Shown here in pieces: positions 27,491 through 45,392 of a stretch of DNA of 64,000 bases. Where the stretch lies: the NCBI GenBank assembly GCA_027919835.1, contig JANVFP010000001.1, positions 2,046,001 through 2,110,000 of the forward strand. Reading direction: 5' to 3'. Source of the stretch: Lentinula raphanica (taxonomy: Eukaryota > Basidiomycota > Agaricomycetes > Agaricales > Omphalotaceae). A program made the position numbers and the translations under genes. How positions within the stretch are numbered: the first letter of the stretch is position 1; each line of letters begins with the position of its first letter. The notes under the pieces were generated by a model. That model ran no database searches, was not told the origin of the DNA, and was given only the letters and a program-made list of their open reading frames with translations.

Positions 27491-27567
27491 TCGAACTCTG
27501 AACAAGCGAAAATACACAGAATAATCGACTCAGAAATTCGAAGAGCTGCTAGAAACTTACGCTAGAC

Positions 27568-30180
27568 ATGGCGTCCTCTACCCCGAGCAACTATACTACC
27601 ATTCAAATGCTTCCTGATGATCAGAAGTTTAATGGCGAAAACTACGTTTCATTCAAATCTATCATGCTCCCTACCGGTAGACTCAAAGGTCTAAATCTAT
27701 ACTGGGAGGGACGCATTACTAACCCTGACAACAATCCATCCCCTTACCCTTCAACGACTCCTTCTTCAATCAACGACCCTAATCCAAGTCCTCTCGAATA
27801 TGAACTTCGTGAGTCAGTTGCATATCTCACCCTCTGGAACAATATCAAGAACCCCGATGGTCTCGGTATTCCCCACAATCTGAGCTCGAAGGAGCTTTGG
27901 GATTACCTCGAGAAAGAGTTCCAGACGGTGACTTCGATTGCCCAACAACGAAAGGAGGATAATCTCCGAGCCGCTAGATATATCGAGGGCACGAAGATTG
28001 CAGGAGAAGGGGGATACGCTGAAAAGATGCGTATTTTGCTGAAGGAGGCAAACGACTGCGGAGCCAAGATTTCACCCAGCCAGTTCAACACCATCTTCTT
28101 AGACTCGTTCCCTCGTAACCCAACCTGGTTAGTCGTAACCGGGAACCTAATGGGAGAAGTAAGCTTCAATGTCATCGTCACTAGACTTGAAGAATACTAC
28201 CTCCATATGGGTACATCCCACTCCGGGTTACCTGTGAATTCTGGAGATCGTGTCTCGGCCCTTCAGGCAGAGGTGAATGAGTTGAAGGCTGCGCTAGCCG
28301 CGGGATCTATACCTCACCGAGGACCAGCGAACCCCGATCTTGTGTGCGTGAACCCTAACTGCAAAGGAAGGGGTCATGTAATCGAAAATTGCTGGAAACT
28401 AGGGGGCGGAAAGCAGGGTCAGTATCCGAAATGGTGGAAAGGGAAACGAGACGCACCTCTTCTAAATCCTTCGGCGAATAACACCACGACGTCAGCTAAT
28501 GCCACTGGAAACATCGCGAATGGACAAATTTATGCCCTTACTTCAACCGTGTTCAACGCGGTATCGACTCCTATACTCCCTGCTGGACCCGCAAGAACGT
28601 TTGCGGACTCGGGAGCCACGGCTCACTTTTTTCATGACCGATCTGTCTTCCGCAACTACGTTCCCAAAACAGGGACAGTCGGTAACTCGTCCAAGAAAGG
28701 AGTGAACTTCGAAATATTAGGCCAGGGAGATGTCGACGTTAGAGTTGTTTACAAGAACAAGGCGCATACACTTACCTTTCAAAATGCACTTCACGCCCCC
28801 TCTATCGCATCCAATTTGATCTCCATCAGTGTGTTAGACAGTCTTGGATGGATGATGACAATTGGGAGGGGTCGAATCATGTTCCATGAACCTGGTGGAC
28901 AAGAAGTGTTCGAAGGTCGTATGATGGACGGACTATACTTGATGGAGGGATCCTTCGTGGGGAGCGCCCCTACTGCGCTAACAGCTAGATCCCTCATATC
29001 TCCGGGTGACAAGAACCTTTGGCATCGAAGGTTTGGTCATTGCGGCGTCACCCGGATTGTCCAAGCATCCGACTTAGTCGAGGGGCTGAGTTTGACCGAA
29101 GGGGAGGTCCTGAAATGCGAAGATTGTACATTAGCAAATCAAAAACGACGTCCGTTCGATGGCGAAGGAGAAAAGGAGGAAGACCCACTCGAGCGTGTTT
29201 ACTTAGATATATTTGGGCCATCCCGCGTACCTTCAGTCGGAGGTAATCGATACGCCATGGTGATTGTCGATGGAGCAACTGCGAAGAAAACTTCGTACTT
29301 CACCCCAAATTGCACCGCCGAAATCACCCTTGGTAACCTCGACAACTTTAAAACTGAAGCTGAGCGCCAGACCGGCTACAAATTGAAACGAGTACGCACT
29401 GACAATGCTCCGGAGTTTAGAGGAAAACTTTGGGCAGATTGGTTCAAGAAGCATGGTATTATTCACGAGTTCACTACTGCTTACTCCTCAGCATCGAATG
29501 GAGTAGCAGAACGTGCTATTGGTGTACTCACTGAACATGCCAGAGCCATGATGACCGAATCGCGATTGGGAGCTCGTTGGTGGTGTGAAGCGTTTGACAC
29601 AGCCGTATATGTGGGAAACCTCCTACCCTCTAGTCGTCGACCAAACTCTATCCCTGAAGAACGATGGTCGAAGAAGAAACAGGACGTCGGTCATCTCAGA
29701 GTATGGGGTTGCATCTGTTACGCGAAGATCCAAGTTGAGACCGGGATAGGAAAATTCGATGACTGGTCTATAAAGTGTCAGTTCATTGGATACGAAGCTC
29801 CAGGGATATATCGATGCAAGGTGGTGGGTTCGGATGAAGTGGTGAGATCGAGAGATGTTGTTTTTGAAGAAGGCCATGGACACTGGACGTCTTCGACTGA
29901 GGGGGAGACAGAAGTAGACGAAGACATGGACGTGAGCTTCTTGAATGCTCCAGTCTCAGAGTCCAAAACCAATGAAGTGGATCCACCAATCAGAACTCCT
30001 AACAGCATCGATACCGAAGCGATGGACCGGCTCGAAGACCAAACCAATGAGACAAGCGAGAGCGGAAATCAAAATCAAAGTCATAGAAATCCCCCTAAAC
30101 CCCCTCGCAAACCTCGTCGTCTTATCTCTACCGAACTGACTAGGAAATCGTCTCGTATTCGAAACTTCTCAAAGCTATGA
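27568..30180 (+). CDS. copia gag-protease-integrase polyprotein
   Basis: 870 residues. The N-terminal 250 residues are a copia-type gag (QKFNGENYVSFKSIM...). A zinc knuckle CxxxxCxxxxHxxxxC lies at about residue 259 (CVNPNCKGRGHVIENC). The aspartic protease motif FADSGATAHF is at about 345. The pre-integrase HHCC region (WHRRFGHCG...CEDCTLANQ) precedes the integrase core, whose likely D-D-E residues are in YLDIFGP, RTDNAPEF and NGVAERA. The frame stops at TGA 30178-30180 just before the RT part. The ATG of the next ORF overlaps it (ATGA), so this is either stop-restart coupling or a one-base frameshift in an originally single pol frame. Confidence 0.92.
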   Translation: MASSTPSNYTTIQMLPDDQKFNGENYVSFKSIMLPTGRLKGLNLYWEGRITNPDNNPSPYPSTTPSSINDPNPSPLEYELRESVAYLTLWNNIKNPDGLGIPHNLSSKELWDYLEKEFQTVTSIAQQRKEDNLRAARYIEGTKIAGEGGYAEKMRILLKEANDCGAKISPSQFNTIFLDSFPRNPTWLVVTGNLMGEVSFNVIVTRLEEYYLHMGTSHSGLPVNSGDRVSALQAEVNELKAALAAGSIPHRGPANPDLVCVNPNCKGRGHVIENCWKLGGGKQGQYPKWWKGKRDAPLLNPSANNTTTSANATGNIANGQIYALTSTVFNAVSTPILPAGPARTFADSGATAHFFHDRSVFRNYVPKTGTVGNSSKKGVNFEILGQGDVDVRVVYKNKAHTLTFQNALHAPSIASNLISISVLDSLGWMMTIGRGRIMFHEPGGQEVFEGRMMDGLYLMEGSFVGSAPTALTARSLISPGDKNLWHRRFGHCGVTRIVQASDLVEGLSLTEGEVLKCEDCTLANQKRRPFDGEGEKEEDPLERVYLDIFGPSRVPSVGGNRYAMVIVDGATAKKTSYFTPNCTAEITLGNLDNFKTEAERQTGYKLKRVRTDNAPEFRGKLWADWFKKHGIIHEFTTAYSSASNGVAERAIGVLTEHARAMMTESRLGARWWCEAFDTAVYVGNLLPSSRRPNSIPEERWSKKKQDVGHLRVWGCICYAKIQVETGIGKFDDWSIKCQFIGYEAPGIYRCKVVGSDEVVRSRDVVFEEGHGHWTSSTEGETEVDEDMDVSFLNAPVSESKTNEVDPPIRTPNSIDTEAMDRLEDQTNETSESGNQNQSHRNPPKPPRKPRRLISTELTRKSSRIRNFSKL

Positions 30181-31304
30181 TGGAGTCTCAACAATATCAA
30201 GAGGAGGAAGGAAATGCTCGAGAATCTGGAGAGAATTGGGCAGGAGACTGGGAGATCCCGATCTTGCCAGAGTTTGATGAGGAAGAAGAAGGTGGTATAA
30301 AGGCGTTGATTGCTCAGAATGAACCCCTCGCTCCCGAACCTGACAACAAATGGACACCTGCCAACTACACCGAAGCTACATCTAGGCTCGACCTATGGGG
30401 ACCCGCTCTGGAGAAGGAAATTGGAAGACTCGACAACCGACATGCCTTCACACCTGTTCCACGAGAAGACTGGATGAAACTCATTGGCACACGACTGGTG
30501 TTCGACGTTGTTACCAACCAGGAAGGAAAGGTTGTGAAGCGAAGAGTCAGGCTCGTTGCGCAAGGACATACTCAAAAGAAGGGGATTCACTACTTTGACT
30601 CCTTTTCTCTCACTGCGCGATACGAGTCCGTCCGCTTTGTCATCGCTCTCGCTGCTCTCTACGGGTTGGAACTTTGGGCCGGAGATTTTGCCGCTGCCTA
30701 TCTGAACGCGAAACCCCAAACCATGAACTACCTTCGTATCCCTGAGGGGTACGAAAAACACTATGGGTTGCGCGACGGCAAGGAAACAGTTCTTCGACAG
30801 GAGATCAATCTGTACGGCACCAAAGATGCAGGAAACAACTGGTACCGACTCCTCGATCAGACTTATCGAGACCTTGGGCACCGTTCCATATCCTCAGACC
30901 CCTGCGTTCGATACCGACTCACCAACGACGGCGAAACTATCACGGCTACTTACACCGACGATGTCCTTGGAGCCTCCACCACTGTTGAAGACGGAGAAAA
31001 GGTTCAGAAGGAGTTGGGTGAGAAGTTTGAATTCAGGAAAGATGGCAAACCGGACACCTGCTTAGGGATCGGGCTCGAATATGGAGAAAATGGCGACATA
31101 TCTATTCACCAACAAGCTCTCATCGAAAATACTCTGGAGAGGTTCGAAATGATTGGATGCGCTCCCAAGTATACACCTCTGTCCCCTGGACTGGACCTCA
31201 ACGACAGTCAGCCTAAACCTATTACCCCCGAAGATCTCCAATTCATGAACGATAAGGATTACATGGGACTTTTAGGCTATCTAAAGAGAAATAAGCTCTA
31301 TAAT

Positions 31305-32681
31305 ACTTAAACATCCATGGACATGTCCACCTTTGGTTTAAACCTGTTTAAACAGGCAGATAATTATATTGAATCAGAGTCTTCAACCCTGGGTTTAAAC
31401 AAGAGGTTTAAACAGTAGCAACTTAAACAAGACAATCTCTCTTTGAACAAGAGTACTTAAACAAGAGGAGATTTGAACCAGAGCCTAGAGGATTTGAACA
31501 AGAGGAGGTTTAAACAAGAGGAGGTTTAAACAAGAGGAGTTTTAAACAAGAGGAGTTTTAAACAAGAGGAGGATTTAAACAAAAGTAATCTAGTTCAAAG
31601 ATGGAATGCTAGTTCAAAGATGGAATGACAGTTATGTGGACTCAGGTAACAAGTGTGCAAAGATGAAGCATGCACAGAGATAGAATCACAGGCATAATGA
31701 AATGAGAGGTGTGCTGCATGCAAGTAGATAAGAGTCGTATGGAGACGATGAATGTGGGAGTATGCAAGTGAATGACAGTCCTGTTGAGACGATGAGCGTG
31801 CAAGTGAATAAATTTGAGGCGACAGACAAGACAATGAATGTGCAAGTGGATAATAGCAGTTATGTTGAGACGACGAGCATGTGAGTGAATGAAGTTGAGG
31901 CAATGACTATGCAAGTGTTCCAGGATAGAATGAGACAATGTAGTGGGTCGCGACGATGATGATGGAGGAATGAGAAAGAAGAGTTTTGAGTTCCCACGGA
32001 ATTTGGATTCAACGTGAGGCCGAGGTTCCGATAGAAAACAGCTAGAAAAGGCAACAGATCGGAACCTCGGCCTCACGTTGAATCCAAATTCCGTGGGAAC
32101 CTAAAACTTTTCTTTCTCGTTCCTCCATCATCGTCGCGACCCACTACTTGCTTCTTCAACTCATTCACCTCATTGCTGCCTGAACATCTCGTCACCACCT
32201 GTACTACACCTTGTCGCCACCCTGTACACCATATCACCACTTGTATGCTGTGTCACTCATTCATCTGTTGTGTCTTGCTCTAGCCACCTCATTCCATTGT
32301 TGCTACTTCCCATCTATAGAATCGCTGTATACCGCTGCTCATGGAAACAGGTGAATTCTTCTCCAATATCACTTCATTTCAGACCTTCTGTTCATTTGAT
32401 TTTTCTGTTTGTTTAATTCTTCCATTTGTTTAAACCTTACATTTGTTTAAACCTTCCGCTTGTTTAAACCTTCCATTTGTTTAAACCTCTCATTTGTTCA
32501 AACCTCTTGTGTTTGCTTAAATCTTCCATTTGTTTAAACTTCCCATTTGTTCAAACCTTCCATTTGTTTATTAGACCTTCCAGTTTAAACCTTCTTTGAA
32601 TGATATCTCTCGATACATGAATATACAATGATGTTTAAACATATTTAAACAAAAAGTGGACAGGTCCATGGTTGTTTAAGT
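31305..32681. mobile_element. Foldback / non-autonomous element FB-1, nested in copia pol
   Basis: 1377 bp with imperfect terminal inverted repeats of about 48 bp (31305-31352 and 32634-32681), starting ACTTAAACA and including CCATGGAC-TGTCCAC. Subterminal parts are packed with GTTTAAAC-type words, including five tandem units of roughly 17 bp at 31495-31580. In the centre a long palindrome (arms 31940-32032 and 32058-32147, 25-nt loop) would fold into a hairpin. There is no coding capacity. No clean target duplication is seen: flanks CTCTATA (left) and CTCATA (right) are similar but not equal. It shares ends and palindrome core with the element at 61047. Confidence 0.8.
31940..32147. repeat. 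Central palindrome of FB-1
   Basis: Inverted arms of about 90 bp around a 25-nt loop. They are nearly identical, with one 3-bp indel and a few substitutions. The inner arms carry TTCCCACGGAATTTGG and CAACGTGAGGCCGAGG, also present in the second foldback element. Confidence 0.9.
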
Positions 32682-33372
32682 GAAACTCATAGGGTTACAG
32701 GTCTAAACCATATCGCCCAGGGGACTCGACCGGACATTGCATACTCTGTATCACTTCTCCAAAGGTTCGCGTCCGATCCTCGACCAATCCACTGGAGTGC
32801 CGCAAAGCACATCTTAGCCTACCTCAGCGCGACGAAGTCCTACAAACTCCGTTATCGACGACAACTCAACCCCGAACAGAATCCCACATTTGTCGGATAC
32901 GCCGACGCCTCTCATGCGGATATCCAAGATGAGTTTGGGGTTGCTACTCGAAAGTCGACAATGGGATATGTTTTCCTCGTTGCTGGTGCGGCGGTTTCGT
33001 GGAGTTCCAAGAAACAGTCTGTTGTTGCCCTTTCTACCACAGAAGCGGAATACCTGTCTATGGTTCATGCTGGCAAACAAGGTGTGTGGATGAAGAACTT
33101 TCTGAAGGGAGTCAACCGCTTCGATGGGAATACTCCCGAAATTCGAGTGGACAACCAAAGCGCCGTTGCTCTCACTCAGACCACCACTCACCATGCACGA
33201 ACCAAACACTTCGACGTAAACTGGTCCTGGATCCGTGATATGGTTCATGAGGGTGAACTGTCCTTTACCTATACTCCTTCTACCAGCAACCTTGCGGACA
33301 TTTTCACGAAAGCTTTACCGCGACAAGCCGTCACTGAAATCACTCGTGGAATGGGCCTTACCGAGTAGAGTT

Positions 33373-34073: not shown

Positions 34074-36500
34074 ATGCTACATCTTGCTGGTCTCAGTTAC
34101 AAGATCACTGCTGCAATTCGTGATAATCTCAACATATGGACAACTCTTCAAAACTGGCTGTTGCCATTGAACGGTTTAGCACATCTCATATCTCTATTCT
34201 CCAACTCCTACTTTCAGGACAGTGCAAAGTTGTTGATCCTCGGATCCATCGTTGAAGCTGGTGCGTGTTATGAAGAAAGTTACTACTATTGCCATATACC
34301 CTCGATAGGAAGTGCCCGATCTTTGCTGATCTCTAGATCTTGACTACTAGGCAGGAGATTATTCCAATGGTTTTTGGAACGATTTCGTATTCGTATGTCT
34401 TTTGTCCGTCCTCTACCAGGCTGTGATCGATGCTGATTGTTGTGGTGGTATCTTTACAGAGTACTCCATAACTGCAGAGTTCGCTCAGGGTGATCCTGCG
34501 TACGAGTGGTTATCGCATTTCTTGGTGGGTTCAAAAATTGTGGCGGGTGTCAAGTTCATTGAAGTTGCACACCACTTCCTGTTCACCGTTTTTCATGTTC
34601 TGTTCTCTTGACCCAGAACCACGAAGAAGTCTGGCGACGTGCTTGCGATTTTCGAGTCAGCTCCAAAAACTCTTCCCAAAAGTGGGGTATATCCGCAGGC
34701 AAGATATCAGAACTTGTCGAATATGTTCCAACATATCTTCGTCCTCAACTTTTCCGATGGAGAGGGTATTGGGTTGAAATCTCGCGAGTTCAGGAGGATT
34801 CCGGTGGTCCATTCGGTCATTCTAGCCCTGGACTCCATTATCCAACTGTTTCAACTATGTATTTGACGTTCGTGTCTTCTATGATTTCCTTCACTGTATT
34901 GAAGCTTCACTGATTGTTCTATCGATCTAGTATCTACACCTTGGACATGTCTGCCATGTCTGCAATTATAGAAGAGGCCCATCAGCGCTATCTAGATGTT
35001 AGCAAAGCGGACGTTATTGTTCATGGGGCAGTAAGTCATTTCGGCATACTTACTCTGTGATACTCTAAATTGATTTGCGAACTTGAACGACAGTCGGACC
35101 ATCATCATGTTGGGTCATGGGACTGGGTCGAGCGTCAGCGTCGTAGACCATTTAGCTCCATCATCTTACAGGAAGGAGTGCTTGAAACTATTTTACAAGA
35201 TGCCAAAGAATTCTTTGCGACTGAAGCATGGTACATCGAACGAGGGATTCCTCATTGAAGAGGTTACCTGCTTCATGGACCTCCGGGCAGTGGAAAAAGT
35301 ATGTGAATTTTGCTAATGAGAAGTCATATCTTGCTTCATCACTGAATTCATAGGTTCTACAATATGTGCATTGGTGAAACTATATCATATTCTTGGAAGT
35401 TTTTGGAATACTTACACCTTGATCATTGTTGGAACAGGCAGGAGAGCTGGGACTGGAAATATACACACTTTCTCTGGCATCAAATCAGTTCGTCCTCATC
35501 AGTCCACGCCATTCAATTCCTGCTAACCTTTTGTTGACAGTATTGATGATCTGTATCTGCAACGCGCCGCAGACTCAATTCCCAAAAACTCCATCTTCGT
35601 GATTGAAGATATTGACTGTGCAATGCCTTCATGGGACGTAGACGAGGATGCCTCACAAATGGCACATCCACAGATAATGATGAATTGGAGATCACCTTCA
35701 AACATCAGGAAAAGCACCCTTGGCCTAGGCAACCCAGAGATACCCCCCAAAACCTAGGCTCTCCCAAAGCACCCAAAGAAATCTGAGGCAAACTCAGGCT
35801 TGCCCAGGCTTTTCCAGGCAAACTCAGGCTTGCTCAGGCTTTTTCAGGCAAATTCAAAGTTTTTAAACTGCTGAGGTTTTGGGGGGTATCTCTAGGCAGC
35901 CTAGGCACCAGGTCAGTTTTGCTGATGAACCGCACTCGCGTCACACTTTCAACCTTGCTTAATGTCATTGATGGTCTGGGAAGTGAAGAAGGGAGGTTAT
36001 TCTTCACAACGGTAATTAGGCTATCTTCGACTGCTTGTGCCACTATGTCCTGAACAACAACCTTTCATAGACCAATCACATAGATCGTTTAGAGCCTGCG
36101 TTGATTCGCCCTGGGCATATTGACCAGAAGATACCATATTATTTGGCTACCCAAGAACAAGCCGCTACTCTCTTCATGCACTTCTTTCCACCAGCTTCTG
36201 CCCCCTCTATTAACCCCCACTCAAAAGCCCCTCGAAAATGGGATTCTCGACAGGGTGACACATGAAACTCAGATGATCCAACTGTCTAAAACTTTTGCAT
36301 CACATATCCCTTCGAATGAATTCTCCATTGCCGATCTTCAAGGGTACCTTCTAGGGTACAAGGACCAACCAGAAAGGGCGGCTGTGGAGTTTTCAGCATG
36401 GGCTGAACAAGAGCGGGAGTTCAAACATCAAGCGGAGGAAAAGGCGGCTAGGAAAAAAATGAAGAAGGAAATCACAGAGGTGAAGTCCTCAAAACCATGA
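34074..36500 (+). pseudogene. BCS1-like AAA ATPase, disabled copy
   Basis: It has the same exon layout as the intact copy at 43248: exons begin 34074, 34351, 34460 and 34617, with matching phases. An N-terminal BCS1-type region ([15 protein letters not shown]) and AAA core are recognisable. There are three breaks. An in-frame TGA at 35256-35258 replaces an Arg codon just before the Walker A motif (GPPGSGKS). A 190-bp miniature element interrupts the exon after the Walker B region ([10 protein letters not shown]). A one-base frameshift near 36225-36250 separates the [15 protein letters not shown] segment from the C-terminus ([20 protein letters not shown]). In addition RPGRID has become RPGHID. 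The 300 bp before it (33772-34073) hold no gene. Confidence 0.85.
35722..35913. mobile_element. MITE of about 190 bp inside the BCS1 pseudogene
   Basis: Terminal inverted repeats of about 38 bp with CCTAGGC near both ends, sharing AGAGATACCCCCCAAAACCT on opposite strands (35735-35754 and 35872-35892). The interior is a small array of CAGGCTT/CAGGCAAA direct repeats. It sits in the exon downstream of Walker B, where the intact paralogue reads straight through. A target duplication is not clear. Confidence 0.75.
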
Positions 36501-36947
36501 CCGTAGTAAGTAAATGTATTGCGACTGAATACCATCAGTCTATCCGAATGCTGAACTGAAGTGAGGAGACCACGGCCCAATTGGTGTGGTCTCCCAAAGG
36601 CAACCAATGAATACCCATTGACACTTCGAGTCGAGGTATCAACCATTGTTTCCTGGCAATCGAAAATTCATCATGTACCTTCTCTTGAGTTTAGCGATGT
36701 CCTCATCATCAATGTCAGATATCATTAACCTCTCTCTATTGTACAAGCAGTGTACATGCATAGCTTGCTTTGAATGGTACTCGACCGTAGTACGCCGTAC
36801 GTTGGATTGATGGCATTGAACGAACGAGCGTCGAAAACTTCCGAGGATTTAGATTAAGCACCTGCTGAGTCAGCACCGCTCTCACTGCACTGTGACAGCG
36901 ACTAATATAACCGAGGTTAGCCGCATGAGTCAAGAGAAGAGTTACGA
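36501..36947. other. Intergenic, no gene seen
   Basis: Spacer between the BCS1 pseudogene and the helicase element. No coding or RNA feature recognised. Confidence 0.5.
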
Positions 36948-36956
36948 GGAGTTACG

Positions 36957-37151
36957 CAGACTCCTTCCCAGTTTCTCTTGCGGGTTAAAAAATTCTGAGA
37001 AAGAGAAGAGAGGTTACTATATATAGTATATCAATATCTTATCGTAATCTATATCTTATCAAAGCCACGTGCATTTAAATTTTTTAACCTCGCAAGAGAG
37101 ACTGGCACAATATGTTTAAGCGCCTGGTGGCTTTGTTTGGTCCCGGCGCTA
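36957..37151 (+). repeat. Left terminal inverted repeat of the helicase element
   Basis: 195 bp, identical to the reverse complement of the right repeat. It has internal symmetry: CTCTTGCGGGTTAAAAAATT near the outer end is mirrored by AATTTTTTAACCTCGCAAGA further in. It contains AT-rich TACTATATATAGTATA and, near the inner edge, a copy of the helicase start codon. Confidence 0.95.
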
Positions 37152-37162
37152 AAAGTACCTAG
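37112..37162 (+). promoter_or_regulatory. Upstream mini-ORF made by the left repeat
   Basis: The left repeat carries the first 13 codons of the helicase gene (MFKRLVALFGPGA). Outside the repeat the frame ends after three more codons at TAG 37160. This 16-codon ORF lies 33 nt upstream of the ATG at 37196 and could act as a uORF. Confidence 0.55.
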
Positions 37163-37195
37163 CGCTCAATATTCATCTCATACAGATATTCATCC

Positions 37196-39933
37196 ATGGC
37201 TTCGCCACTGCAATCGGGACAGTGGATGCAACAGATAATCAGCATTTTGAATGACAATCAACTCACCAGCTGGGATTTCATTCACGATCTTCTTGAATTT
37301 GGAGCAGTTTTTCCGTATACCATACACCATCAGCAATGTTTGATCGAGCACATTTCTGAATTATTCAGTATCCTCTTGCAAACATCGGCAAGGGCCACTC
37401 AGCAGGCAGCTTCAATAACAATGACAGAGACTTACCGGGCTGAAATCCTTGGACTTGTTGAGAAAGCTCAGGGCTTTCACTTCAATGCAAGGACCGCCAC
37501 ACTAGAACAGCTCGAGGGCTTTGCCATCGAGAACCTGGCTGTGCAGATGCAGGCGTTGTGTCCTTTTCTTTCAAATCTTCTCTGCACTCTCCTCGACGCC
37601 CGCTGCACTTATCAGCATCAAGAGTCATCAGATCATGATGACATCGAAACCAACAGAACGGACTCGGAGAATGACGACGAAGGGACTGACCCAGAGGTTG
37701 AGCGAGAAGGTTGGCAAGAGGGTGCAGATGATCTGATGGACTCTGCCTGGACTGAAGACACCAGTATGGATGTTGATGAGACTGGAGAGGATAACAAAGT
37801 GGTCAGTAGAGAAGAAGAGCAGGTGAAACAAAGGCGACACACTCAGGCAACAATTAAGCAGCATGAAAAGCTGTTGGAAATAGTAAGTCACCATCATGTT
37901 ACAGACCGTTCAGCCCAATGAATTTTGTGCAGAAGCGCGTCCTTATACTCTCCGTGATTGGCCATAGTACCAATCAACATTTCAATTCATTCCAGTCAAT
38001 TGTCGGTCTCTTCTTGGAATCGAAGCAAGCTCCCGAAATCATCGTTGAGCTGACCGCGCATATGGGTGTCTCTATCTCAGCCAGTAGCCTACGCAACATG
38101 ATCAACTCCCTCAACAAGCAAGCGAAGATTCGATTGAAAACCATACCGAAATCCAACAAAATCTACGACAACGTTGATGTTGATTTTCACAAAGGTCAGC
38201 CGACCGCTGAAAATCAGAAAATGCATCTCAGTTTTACCGCCGCCACCTTTGTACCAATCAAGAACGTAAATCGAGCGCAAAACTTACGGTTCGTGCGTGA
38301 ACTTCACGAGACATCGCCATATAACCGGCTCGCGACGAATGTCATACACCCTACGTTCGAGGATATAGTGCCTCCTGGAGGCAATATTCTGTCCTCGCGC
38401 GAATCTCCCGAATCCATCTATCGATATTTTACTTGGCTCTGCCTGCAGATACTTGTTGAGCAAGGAGGCCCTGCATTCTCAGCCTTTAAAAGGGAGCTTC
38501 AAGGCGGCCCAGTTGCGATACAGGTTCTTCCATCTGATCAGAAAGATGCTCAGTATCCAGCAGAAGCAATCAACGCAGATGAAGGAACGTACGATGGAAA
38601 TGCTCAAGTGATTACATCACTCTTGGAGCAGTCGAACACCTCAGCTGACGAGCTGGAGCAATATCTGGAGTTTTTTCACGGAGATCTCGGGACATTGGAA
38701 CGTATCGAGGGACTCAAGAAGATGAGGAGTATCGAAGGATCAGCACAGAATCGACTCGACTTTTTGCTCTACATACCTGGACTTTTCCACATGAAGATGG
38801 CTGCGGCAGATGCATATGCACGTATTCATGTAGCGCCTATGGAAAACCGAGGGGAGAAGCTTGGAGTAAATGAATATCTGAACTATCTTCGTCCAAAAGC
38901 GACCGCCGAGTTCACTTCGAAGAACGGTCCTTCGTTTCGGTCAATGCATGATGCAATACATCATGTTGTTTGGACAGATATTCTGCAGTGCTTTGTCCGC
39001 GAAGTGAAGACCCAATATGACTGTGATACACTCGAAACATTTGCGAAGTCGAAGCATGGAACCTGGGAGAAGCTTGTTGAGCTGTCCAAACAGATTGTGT
39101 TCAAGTATTTACCCAATCGCCAACTTCATCATCGGAATCATCAGCCAGATCGTGAACGCGACTTTGTGTTTGAAAACTTGGCCATCCGGAATCGGGATGG
39201 CCTGCTATACCTGGGATTCTCAAGAGCAATCAGCTATGGAGATGTGGGGAGGATTATTCAACTTTTTCCGTACCTTATTGCAACATTCGCAGCAGTCGGA
39301 AAGCACAAATATGCCACATATATGACGAAGTTTCTCACTGATATAAACCGGCGGTACCCTCCTGCTCTACGGGACGCCATACTCAGCAATTGGCTTTTCA
39401 ATCAAAAAGGAACTGCCGATGGATTTCGGCCTTTTGACTGGTTGCAGGAATTGAATAATCTGTACACCAAGGTAAGCAGTGATTTGAGAACATGATAGTA
39501 TGAAATAACAGACCTACGTCTCGTTTAGACAATCTTTGCAGGGAAGGGACCTAATCATACACGCCAGTTAATATTCAAACGGTCCGTCCTGCTCGAAGTT
39601 TACCGAGCGATGCAGGAAACCATTGAAGACAACTTTTTTCTTACTCATCGAACTGTTCACCATTCGAAGCCTACGATGACAAACACGTTGCGAAAGTTGG
39701 CCGAAATTGTATCCGCGCTTGATAGCACTATGTTGAAGCCTGGCCGATTATCGAGTATACCCGGGCACCAAGACCGATGGAAAGTACAAGATGTAATCAT
39801 CGAGGGCTTTGCAATACTGGCACAGAAAAAGGAGTTGTTGATAGGTATGCCGTTTGATGAAGCCGACGAGGCGGAGGCAAACGAAAGTCTTCACTCCCGA
39901 GGAATAGATGGATATGACATTGGTGTCGATTAA
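37196..39933 (+). CDS. Element-borne 876-residue protein, DUF6589-like, candidate transposase
   Basis: Exons 37196-37882, 37933-39471, 39529-39933, total 2631 nt (876 residues). The N-terminal 150 residues are helical, followed by a very acidic stretch (about 140-205). The large middle domain has KIYDNVDVDFHKGQ, LLYIPGLFHMKMAAADAYARI and YLGFSRAISYGDVGRI blocks. From memory the layout resembles agaricomycete proteins annotated DUF6589; this was not verified by search. As the only other gene in an element with TIRs and target duplication, it is the natural transposase candidate, and the DNVDVD block could supply an acidic catalytic residue, but I cannot define a catalytic triad. It converges on the helicase gene. 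Confidence 0.8.
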
Positions 39934-40040
39934 TGCGTTGACGCAGATTATCTATGTACATTCGTATCTGTGTTACCCAATCAGCAAATTGTTCAATGGT
40001 GCTCACTGGGAAACTCACCTACATACAAGAACTACCATAC

Positions 40041-42975
40041 CTATGTTTGCTTCGCGTTAGCTAGTGTCCCTGTTGGCGTGTTCTCAGCGATATTGGTTGA
40101 ATAGTATGGGCAATTATGACTATTTTCTGAGTAACATTAGTGCATAGTCCCGACCAACGCAAACGAACGATACATACTTCGATGGCCCTTCTGAAGACAT
40201 TTACTACATGTAACCTGTGCATATTTACGTTTGACCGTCGTCGGTCCAGACGTGGATGCAGAACTTGCAGAATTAGAAAGCGTCGACGTTGAAGGCAAGG
40301 CCTGTTCCAGGATGGAGTCTGTGTTCGATACGATTGCACCAAACGTACGAATCGTCGGTGTAGTAGATGGGAGTAAGGAGGGCGGCGATAACGTCATCGC
40401 GGTTGCTGGCATAGACGGCGCGGATTGTGAGATGGACGATGGACGAAAGAATGATGGTGGAACAAAATTAAAAGGCATAGCCATTGCTGGAGTAGATGAT
40501 GGAGGGAACAATGGAGGTAGCGAGGGTACAGTGAGTGTAGGTACAGCTGAGGTAGCACCAATGCCCGTCATTGTTGCAAGAACAGATGACGGCGGCACTA
40601 GCGAGGATGGTGGATGCGAGGATGGTGGATGCGAGGATGGTGTATGCGAGGATGGTGTATGCGAGGATGGTGTATGCGAGGATGGTGTATGCGAGGATGA
40701 AGGATCCAAGGATAGAGGATGCATGATCGAATGCGATAATGAGGATGGAAGAGTCCGTTTAGAGGTAGGAATGGCAGCCGCCGCCCTCGAATTGCGTGGT
40801 TTATGAGGTTTGGGTGCAGGAGGTTCGTACTTGTAATTATCTTTGATCAACTGAAGAATTCGCTGACCTAATTTTTCAGTGAATGCCCACGACATCCGTT
40901 TGCGAAAATCGTCCATGTTTAGCAGCTTGTTTTCATGTGCCCAGTCGACGATACGGTCCAAGACTGAATCAGGCCACAACGCACTTGGTGCAAGCAACGT
41001 ATATTGTCCGTAAGTCTCCACGAACCACCGATCTCGCTCCTGATCCAGGACTGCCCACAATTTCGTCTCTTTTGGTCCATGCTCGTAGGTTTTGGGATTG
41101 AGCATCCTGCTTTGTTTGGCACTGAAAGTCTCCTCGGTTGAGAAAGGCCAGTAATCTGGCTCACATAGGTCACAGCAATGTTTGACGGGATGAGGAGAAC
41201 AGCCAGAGCGAGTACAGCAGAAACGATTGATGATGGGTTCTACAGAGAACGTTGTAAATCGAGCAGACCAATCATATCGAAGCATCAACTTACTAAGTCC
41301 AGCGTTCCCGAAGTAAACGCATCCAATCTCGCGCCGGCACTTCTTTCCAGGACGATTCTCGGCATTGATGTAGTCGTCCATGGACCGTTCCACCTTAATT
41401 GCATAACCATTGAAGTCCAACGTTGTGAGTTTGGATGAATTGAGTTCGACGGGTCCTTGAGTTCGAGTTTTCTTTGTACTCCGCTGTGATTTGGACTTCT
41501 CGTTGTTCGATTTCCGCTTTTGAGATTGCACAGTCGCGACCGGATTAGAGGAAGCTCGTTGAATTTCTCGAGCTTCAGCAGCCGCGGTCTCCGCAAGGCT
41601 TTTGGCCAACCTATTGCGCTCATCTGCTTCCTTCGCTACCTTGGCGGCTGCATGTTTTGCATCATCAAAATAGGATGGCTCCGCCAATAAAATCGCGCAA
41701 CCGTCAAGCGTCAGATCACGGACGGCACGTCCCAGCCTCTGATACCAGGAACTAAGAGACGCAGGGACCCCATACTGAATAACCATGTAAATATCAGGTA
41801 TGTCAATACCCTGTGAATGGAACTGTGAGTTCGGAGAATTTAATGTAAACTAGACACTCACCATTCCAACCGCATCTGTAGCACATGCTCCAAGCCTGTG
41901 CCCAAGCTTCAAAGCATGTACTTCATCATGACGAAACTCGTCAGTCATCCCCGAATGAATCCATTTAATCAAGTCGACTTCGTGCTCAGGGAGACGGGAA
42001 CGCAAGAATTGGGCACCCTCTTGGGAGGCGTTACGTGAATTGAAGAAGACGAGGAATTTCTTTTGTACAGAAGCATCCGAAGATTGCGAGACGAGTGGTG
42101 CGAGGTCATGGTAGGAATTGGCAGGGTACTTCATTTTCTGTACGCGATGGAAGATGTTTTTTCGGTCCGTATCGAGTCGAATTTCAGTTGTATCTGCACC
42201 CAGATTCAGATGCATTTTCAGCTGCTCTGCATCGTTGGGAGGAAGTGTTGCCGTGCCGAGATGGTAAGGAATATGTCGCGGTAATGCATAACGAGAGGGT
42301 CCTAGAGTATGATATTCGGGACGGAACGTTCCACCCCATTCACGAATGACATGGCTTTCATCAATGACTATATCAATAACAGAACACATGAATACTCTGT
42401 TATGGAGGAGTATATCATAGCGGTGGTCTTTGGCCATAGTCTCCGGACTGAATATGACTACACGATACTTCAGCTTTGAGATATCCTGTCGTACATAAGT
42501 ATCAATGGTCCCATTCAGCCACCTGAATAACTGGAACTTGAAAACATACCTTGTATATTGCATCTGTTGCATTATGTGCAGTCACATTTATGGCCGCACA
42601 TCCAACGTCATTTAACTGTCCCTCAAACTGAGCTCCGAGTTCTTTCAATGGTGTAACAACTATTATTGTTCCCTTTTCATCAAAAACCAAAGACAGCCAG
42701 TATGCGAGCGATTTTCCTGAACCAGTAGGTGCGACCATAAGAACGTCTTTGCCTTCAAAGATGGCACGAGCAGCTTGAATTTGCCAAAGACAAGGGTATT
42801 TGCCGAAGAGCGTGAATGCTTGATCTCGAATTTCTTCATCTGACTTCGGAAGGTTACCACGAACCATGGAAGACTTGTCAAACTCAAGACCGCTGAAGCT
42901 GGAAGACTTAGAAAATGTAGTGAGTGACCGTGTCGTAGCGCCGGGACCAAACAAAGCCACCAGGCGCTTAAACAT
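40041..42975 (-). CDS. RecQ-like DNA helicase with zinc knuckle, element-borne
   Basis: Exons on the minus strand: 42550-42975, 41862-42485, 40178-41810, 40041-40126, total 2769 nt (922 residues). A further in-frame 54-nt intron within the third exon (GTAAGTTGATG...CTGTAG, near 41240-41295) is possible. The start ATG lies inside the right TIR. Motifs: Walker A APTGSGKS, DESH box (IVIDESHVIREWGGTFRPEY), GTATLP, LVFFNSRN, ACATDAVGMGIDIPDI and the arginine finger region YQRLGRAVRD; order and WGGTFRPEY fit RecQ. A cysteine cluster (CCTRSGCS...CCDLC) follows. Then comes a disordered tail with SSHTP repeats and a CxxCxxxxH...C knuckle completed across the last intron. Likely role: unwinding DNA during transposition or replication of the element (inferred). 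Confidence 0.88.
40600..40705 (+). repeat. 15-bp tandem repeat inside the helicase gene
   Basis: About seven near-identical 15-bp units (TGCGAGGATGGTGTA and variants). On the minus strand they encode the SSHTP/SSHPP repeat of the helicase tail. The plus-strand ORF rich in EDGVC is only its shadow. Confidence 0.9.
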
Positions 42976-43130
42976 ATTGTGCCAGTCTCTCTTGCGAGGT
43001 TAAAAAATTTAAATGCACGTGGCTTTGATAAGATATAGATTACGATAAGATATTGATATACTATATATAGTAACCTCTCTTCTCTTTCTCAGAATTTTTT
43101 AACCCGCAAGAGAAACTGGGAAGGAGTCTG
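42936..43130 (-). repeat. Right terminal inverted repeat of the helicase element
   Basis: 195 bp, exact inverted copy of 36957-37151. The helicase ATG (42973-42975) is inside it, so about 155 bp of the repeat form the promoter and 5' UTR of that gene. Confidence 0.95.
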
Positions 43131-43247
43131 GGAGTTACGTTGATCGATTGATCCATCTTCTTGTACTTAAACAAGTTCTATCATGCTGTGTTTGCGCAGC
43201 TTTCCTTTGTGCTGCAACTCACAAAGGGATTTTTCCTTCCACTCAGA

Positions 43248-45392
43248 ATGCTGCATCTTCCCAAGCTCAATCATGAATCTATCACCCATGGCAGTCCCAG
43301 CTTATGGACTGGTCTCAAAAGTCTTTCACAGTCGAACGGAGTGGCACATCTCATATCTTTCCTGTCCAAATCCTATTTCAAAGACAGTGCAAAACTATTA
43401 ATTCTTGGATCCCTTGTAGAGGCCGGTGAGTATCTATCTGACTTATCACGCTCATTAGGAAGTCTTTGATCTCCTCAATTTCGAAATAGGTAGGAGATTG
43501 TGTCAGTGGTTTTTGGAACGGTTTCGCATACGTGGGTCTTCAAACTGTCTTCATTCTTTCTCTGAATCGCGACTGAAACTGACGCTGCGGTGCCATCTTT
43601 ACAGAGTATTCGATAAGTGCAGAGTTCCATCAGGGTGATCCCGCGTACGAGTGGATATTGCATTTCTTGGTTAGTTCATGCTCTTCTGCACATCATCCAT
43701 TTGTTTTACTTCGTCGTTCTGCTCCGTTGATGCTTGTTCCCCTCATCCAGAATCATGAAAATGTCTGGCGGCGTGCTCGCGAATTTTCAGTCAGCTCAAG
43801 GAGTTCTTCTCGCAAATGGGGTATCGCTATAGGCAAAATATCTGAACTCGTAGAATATGTACCGACATATATTCGTCCTCAAATCTTCCGATGGAAAGGG
43901 CATTGGGTCGAGATCTCGCGTGTCAGGGAGAACAATAACGGCCTTCTTTTTCGTGGTGGTATGAATTCTGTGGTTCCACCCTTTCCACAAGGAAACACTT
44001 CAACCATGATCGTCACGTATGTATCATCTTCGGGCTGGCTCGGCGCTATACTCACTTCTTTGATCAGTGTATACACCTTGGACATGTCCGTCATGTCTGC
44101 AATTATAGAGGAGGCTCATCGGCTGTATCTTGCGGTCAGCAAACCGAATGTTATTGTACATATGGCAGTCAGTCATGAGGACAATGTGTTTGATTTTCCG
44201 TACTGATTCCTGCGTATGAATGACAGTCGAATCATCATGGCGGTTCCTGGGATAGGGTCAAACGTCAGCGCCGTAGACCGTTCAACTCAGTCATATTACA
44301 AGAAGGGGTCATCGAATCGATATTACAAGATGCTCAAGAATTTTTTGCCAGTGAAGCTTGGTACACTGAGCGAGGGATTCCCCATAGGAGAGGTTATCTA
44401 CTGTATGGACCACCGGGAACCGGGAAAAGTATGTGAATCATTTGAATCAAATGCTGTGTCTCTCTGCATCTCTGAATCCATAGGCTCTACTATCTATGCA
44501 CTGGTGAGTTTGAATTATTTGATGCTCATTCTGTATGTAGATACTGATAAGTCTACTTGCATTGCTACAAGGCAGGGGAACTGGGATTGGAAATTTACGC
44601 ACTCTCCTTAGCCTCACACTAGTTTGTTGCCGACATTCTATGCTATTCTCCTTATTCATTCATTTTCTAACAGTATCGATGACTTTTTCCTGCAACGCGC
44701 CGCAGACACAATTCCTAAAAATTCAATCTTCGTAATTGAAGATATCGACTGTGCGATTCCTCCATCGGACGCCGATGAGAATACCCCAGAGATGGTACAT
44801 CCGCAAATGATGATGAGAGGTGCTAGGCGGGTACCCAATCAAACTCGCGTCACACTTTCGGCCTTGCTCAATGTTATCGATGGTCTGGGGAGTGAGGAAG
44901 GGAGATTGTTCTTCACTACGGTAAACCAATTATTTCCCACTGCCAATGCCGTCACCTCTGAATATACACCCTCCGCAGACTAACCATATCGATCGCCTAG
45001 AGCCTGCGCTGATCCGTCCTGGACGTATTGATAGGAAGATACCATACCATCTGGCCACTCAAAAACAAGCCGCTAGTCTTTTCGTGCACTTCTTCCCGCC
45101 CAGCTCCACCTCGTCTAGTGGTTCTCATTCTGAACTGCTCGAAGATGGGACCAAGGCGACGCATGATACTCAAGAAGCTCAATTATCCGAAACGTTCGCA
45201 TTGTGTATTCCTTCGAACGAATTCTCTATTGCTGAGCTTCAAGGGTACCTTCTGGGATACAAGCACCAACCGGAAAGGGCGGCTGTGGAATTTGCAGCGT
45301 GGGCTGAACGGGAGCGCGAATATAAACGCGAAGAACAGGAAAAGGGGGCTAAGAAAAAGGTGTTGAAAGAGATCACCGCGGTCAAGGCTTGA
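43248..45392 (+). CDS. BCS1-like AAA ATPase, intact copy
   Basis: Ten exons: 43248-43425, 43490-43531, 43605-43669, 43751-44016, 44068-44167, 44227-44428, 44484-44503, 44572-44621, 44674-44920, 44979-45392, total 1584 nt (527 residues). N-terminus: one membrane-spanning or amphipathic stretch (about 25-60) and the BCS1-type region. AAA core: Walker A GPPGTGKS (about 280), Walker [11 protein letters not shown] (about 325), and [18 protein letters not shown] with the arginine fingers (about 391). A charged Lys/Glu tail ends the protein. Yeast Bcs1 is a mitochondrial inner-membrane translocase for the Rieske protein. Agaricomycetes carry many divergent relatives, so this is called BCS1-like and not the orthologue. 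Confidence 0.9.

Follow-up and report, generated by a model that had tools for sequence, protein, structure and literature searches.

AcademH, a lineage of the Academ DNA transposons, was reportedly described by Kojima in 2020 (Mob DNA 11:15). According to the sources cited here, AcademH elements carry a helicase and produce target-site duplications (TSDs) of 9 or 10 bp, whereas those of AcademX, which belongs to the same superfamily, have a nuclease instead and TSDs of 3 or 4 bp (PMC10045372). AcademH occurs at low copy number in Basidiomycota, Ascomycota and Mucoromycota (PMC10799480), and the agaric Marasmius oreades also has putative non-autonomous Academ elements (PMC8290104). Fungal KolobokH, a lineage with terminal inverted repeats (TIRs), likewise encodes a RecQ helicase, and in a rhodophyte Kolobok the RecQ helicase lies on the complementary strand (PMC9587614). 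The Academ superfamily is little studied. We analysed a stretch of 64,000 nucleotides from the agaric fungus Lentinula raphanica (the window) that contains a 6,174-bp transposon at positions 36957–43130. We conclude, with a probability of roughly 0.88, that this is a DNA transposon of the AcademH type, intact in structure and probably autonomous, with a predicted DDE transposase of the DUF6589 family and a RecQ-like partner helicase.

The two TIRs of the element (36957–37151 on the + strand and 42936–43130 on the − strand) are 195 nt long and 100% complementary to each other. They are bordered by perfect copies of the 9-bp TSD GGAGTTACG at 36948–36956 and 43131–43139, to which no strand is assigned. 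Two convergent, intron-bearing genes are present between the TIRs, and all their introns are GT-AG. The + strand gene encodes a protein of 876 amino acids (aa) in three exons, 37196–37882, 37933–39471 and 39529–39933, the last including the stop codon. The − strand gene encodes a 907-aa protein, also in three exons; exon 1 (42550–42975) has its start codon within the right TIR, and is followed by exon 2 (41862–42485) and by exon 3 with the stop codon (40137–41810). The perfect TIRs, the TSD and the two convergent spliced genes had all been reported in a preliminary description of this DNA, and the coordinates confirm them. The left flank (36500–36956) is unique in the assembly except for a repeat of ∼50 bp.

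This structure is not a chance arrangement, as other copies in the genome have the same ends and 9-bp TSDs. A TIR query gave at least 62 matches in the genome, including the two of the window itself, and 26 elements were read with both tips found; this set leaves out five single-ended TIR matches on C9, C14, C21, C26 and C29. Three copies (C2, C13 and C27) are full-length relatives having the same two convergent genes, and C10 is a more distant two-ended relative (34% aa identity). There are also 20 miniature inverted-repeat transposable elements (MITEs) of 499–567 bp with both ends present, and one further MITE on C55, counted among the 26, is split by a nested element. The TSD is an exact 9-bp repeat in 24 of the 26 two-ended elements, the exceptions being L065 (one mismatch) and L067 (best read as 8 bp). 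At five other places (L059–L063) the right tip was not found, and the TIR query shows a partial right arm for two of them. The closest other copy found in the assembly has 82% identity in the transposase core. The search for further copies and their 9-bp duplications, which the preliminary description had proposed, thus gave both relatives and MITEs.

DUF6589 was the only Pfam match of the 876-aa protein at E ≤ 0.1. Its predicted fold matches the DDE transposases P element, Hermes and RAG1. P element and Hermes are the closest solved folds, with 7–9% sequence identity, and the putative catalytic residues D308, D480 and E735, all encoded by exon 2, are conserved. Foldseek alone gave no match for the predicted structure at E ≤ 0.001. 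The predicted fold together with the conserved residues supports the assignment of this protein as a DDE transposase, in line with the preliminary description, which had guessed a transposase and suggested a structure prediction; the predicted RNase H-like core is compatible with a recombinase. This function for DUF6589 may be new. No paper in the library searched by full text mentions DUF6589. A Pfam family of 'unknown function' that occurs in many mushroom genera would thereby gain a likely function.

We compared the element with the published description of AcademH, on which the assignment rests. The element has a 9-bp TSD, encodes its own helicase, has a DDE transposase as judged from the predicted fold and the conserved D/D/E residues, and resides in an agaric, AcademH hosts being animals or fungi. 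No tested feature differs between the two. Since every AcademH feature tested is present, and a helicase with 9–10-bp TSDs marks a lineage already described (PMC10045372 and PMC10799480), the earlier proposal of a possibly undescribed transposon is not supported.

We also considered that the element could belong to another superfamily with TIRs (KolobokH, Mutator-like or P/hAT-like) that acquired a RecQ helicase independently, which we regard as quite improbable. Mutator-like elements typically have long TIRs and 9-bp TSDs, as has the window element, but no Mutator-like transposase family was matched, DUF6589 being alone in the Pfam search. P element and hAT transposons are suggested by the closest solved folds, but the likeness is at the level of fold only, at the low identity given above; these transposons produce 8-bp TSDs, and we know of no helicase partner for them. 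As Kolobok elements duplicate TTAA, the 9-bp non-TTAA TSDs exclude an identity with KolobokH. From the convergent layout alone Kolobok would fit, in view of the RecQ helicase of fungal KolobokH and that on the complementary strand of the rhodophyte Kolobok (PMC9587614).

More diverged DUF6589-helicase families are present in the same genome. The second family (L050, L051 and L058) consists of copies that are 98.9–99.5% identical. L050 and L051 have 26% aa identity to the window transposase, ends that read TAGACTCG, compared with CAGACTCC in the family of the window, and 9-bp TSDs in both cases (2/2). Because its copies are nearly identical and have 9-bp TSDs, this family has probably moved more recently than that of the window. 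A third, diverged family (L052, L053 and L055) shows 75–78% DNA identity over long aligned pieces, and its ends were not found within the stretches read.

The 907-aa protein has the Pfam domains DEAD and Helicase_C. Among solved structures it is closest to a bacterial RecQ (E 3.4e-28 over residues 67–396) and next to WRN, RECQ5 and BLM. It contains GSGKS, DESH and QRLGRAVRD, which we take to be helicase motifs, as well as cysteines similar to those of the RecQ zinc subdomain. By its sequence, therefore, it is a RecQ-like helicase. Its first codons lie within the TIR in the other full-length relatives too. A 16-codon open reading frame (ORF) with a stop, in and just past the left TIR (37112–37162, + strand) and upstream of the transposase start, has the start of the helicase; thus the left TIR duplicates this start.

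The transposase core query matched 12 loci in the genome, and a convergent helicase gene was found at 11 of them. At 10 of the 12 the helicase query also matched, convergently, and the two genes together cover 2.3 to 6.4 kb; at the eleventh (C5) Pfam revealed a convergent Helicase_C ORF. The convergent helicase is retained in lineages down to ∼26% transposase identity. Seven other helicase matches (C8, C2, C72, C6, C7, C31 and C1) have no nearby transposase match. The one on C72 sits in a truncated L050-family copy at a contig end, and the remaining six may be host helicases or remnants.

Ratios of nonsynonymous to synonymous substitution rates (dN/dS) among the window, C2, C13 and C27 copies were 0.07–0.12 for the transposase core and 0.08–0.12 for helicase exon 2; these ratios are rough, as dS exceeded 1 in 9 of the 12 comparisons, and one C27 codon with a stop was omitted. 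Both genes are clearly constrained by purifying selection. From its constant association with the transposase and the selection on both genes, we concluded that the helicase belongs to the machinery of the element and is not cargo. An ancestor could instead have captured the helicase once, as a passenger dispensable for transposition. Such a passenger would agree with the MITEs, which carry no helicase and so do not need one in cis, and with the transposase locus on C14, where no helicase was present in the 6 kb read; both observations weigh against a helicase that works as a partner. We nevertheless hold the passenger explanation to be unlikely, as the helicase is under purifying selection as strong as that on the transposase and has been kept at 11 of the 12 loci through such diverged lineages. 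The pairing of a RecQ-like helicase with a transposase, put forward in the preliminary description, is therefore borne out as one kept by selection. That description had also named three observations that would speak against it: a lack of other copies with both genes between the same TIRs, a fold incompatible with any recombinase, and the two genes occurring as ordinary unlinked host genes. None of the three was made.

The 9-bp footprint of insertion is seen directly, and from this footprint, the fold and the triad we infer the chemistry of transposition. The DUF6589 transposase, whose predicted structure combines an RNase H-like core with a large helical insertion, would bind and cut the TIRs and join the element to a target site opened by cuts staggered by 9 bp. 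The RecQ-like helicase would act as its partner in transposition, most likely by unwinding either the ends of the transposon or an intermediate of transposition. This unwinding could allow an inverted repeat inside the TIR to fold, or could clear strands for gap repair. The MITEs, being short internally deleted copies, would have been mobilised in trans by this machinery, because they have identical ends and duplications. An intact-looking two-gene element of the AcademH type, with defined ends, open frames, a predicted triad and MITEs, offers a good starting point for tests of activity.

The perfect ends had earlier been read as suggesting that the insertion is very recent, which is an overreach. 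TIR identity within elements is 93.7–100% (189/190 in C13, 180/181 in C27, where 18 further positions are gaps, and 177/189 in C2), so that near-identical TIRs are found within C13 and C27 also. Between elements it is 81–87% in five of the six comparisons (96.8% for C2/C27). As identity is high within elements and mostly low between them, it is a poor clock and we rejected it as a measure of age. The identity partly reflects homogenisation within elements, and therefore a perfect TIR gives no date for the insertion. As sequence features, the intact TSD and the open frames would fit an element that is young and possibly active.

Each TIR contains a second inverted repeat, which starts ∼10–15 bases from the tip. 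In the window its arms 1 and 2 lie at 36968–36992 and 37081–37105 in the left TIR (+ strand) and at 43095–43119 and 42982–43006 in the right TIR (− strand). Across these helicase-bearing transposons the arms are about 22–30 nt long and separated by some 30–110 nt. As single-stranded DNA, the left end of the window element folds at a z of −5.98, compared with −0.28 for the following 150 bases. In a swap test limited to arms with differences at 4 or more of their 18 positions, an arm paired with its own partner at 15.4 of the 18 positions and with a swapped one at 12.6, a difference reached in 0 of 5000 permutations; 49 of 52 TIRs were taken, both C10 ends and L066_R being omitted, and related copies are non-independent. 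With one row per arm class the values were 14.9 and 13.0 (0 of 20000 permutations).

We asked what these arms represent. In most elements the same arm sequence is present at both ends, as would be expected if the repeat consists of two inverted binding sites of the transposase. Alternatively, template switching at quasi-palindromes would mirror arm changes without selection. These explanations, neither of which gives the hairpin a role, are together the ones we somewhat favour. A fixed binding site, however, does not predict what was observed in C10. Between its left and right arms there are five substitutions and a one-base indel, and each of these six changes recurs, mirrored, on the partner arm within the same end. 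The C10 arms match at 23/24 and 22/23 columns within ends, with pairing scores of 42 and 40 within ends against 21 and 18 across them. Because of these mirrored differences, the C10 sequence suggests that a hairpin is the form in which each TIR end is recognised or copied; template switching still fits, as does selection for folded ends. L050 and L051, two copies of one family, give weak support (28 and 20 versus 18 and 16), and L041 has one mirrored arm position. On the opposite side, L029_R, L037_L, L038, L040_R, L043_R and L044_L bear unmatched arm changes and L066_R no longer pairs. The remaining elements have near-identical ends, which are uninformative on hairpin versus inverted binding sites, and the distinction thus depends mainly on one element, C10.

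We tentatively propose, as a possibility that we consider rather doubtful, that the ends are self-complementary, co-varying units recognised or copied as folded strands, and we infer that the RecQ helicase may melt them into hairpins for the DDE transposase. The co-varying inverted repeat within the TIRs may be new, and it makes testable the question of why a transposon with TIRs carries a RecQ-like helicase.

The split copy on C55 (L028) was tried as a variant of the family with other cargo, DUF6729 and a 3′-5′ exonuclease, and this was rejected. The copy shares the TIRs and TSD of the family. It is a MITE of ∼550 bp interrupted by an independent ∼5.8-kb element that is flanked by a 10-bp duplication of MITE positions 140–149. 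DUF6729 and the 3′-5′ exonuclease gene are carried by this nested element, at about 820–6647 of L028 (G000:C55:53100-60800).

In the surroundings of the window element, two mutually similar ORFs (36105–36500 and 44925–45392) flank it and, by eye, look like C-terminal portions of BCS1-like AAA ATPases. Further upstream, at 27553–33368, inspection by eye indicated a Copia-like retrotransposon with several open frames and an apparent interruption between 31310 and 32649.
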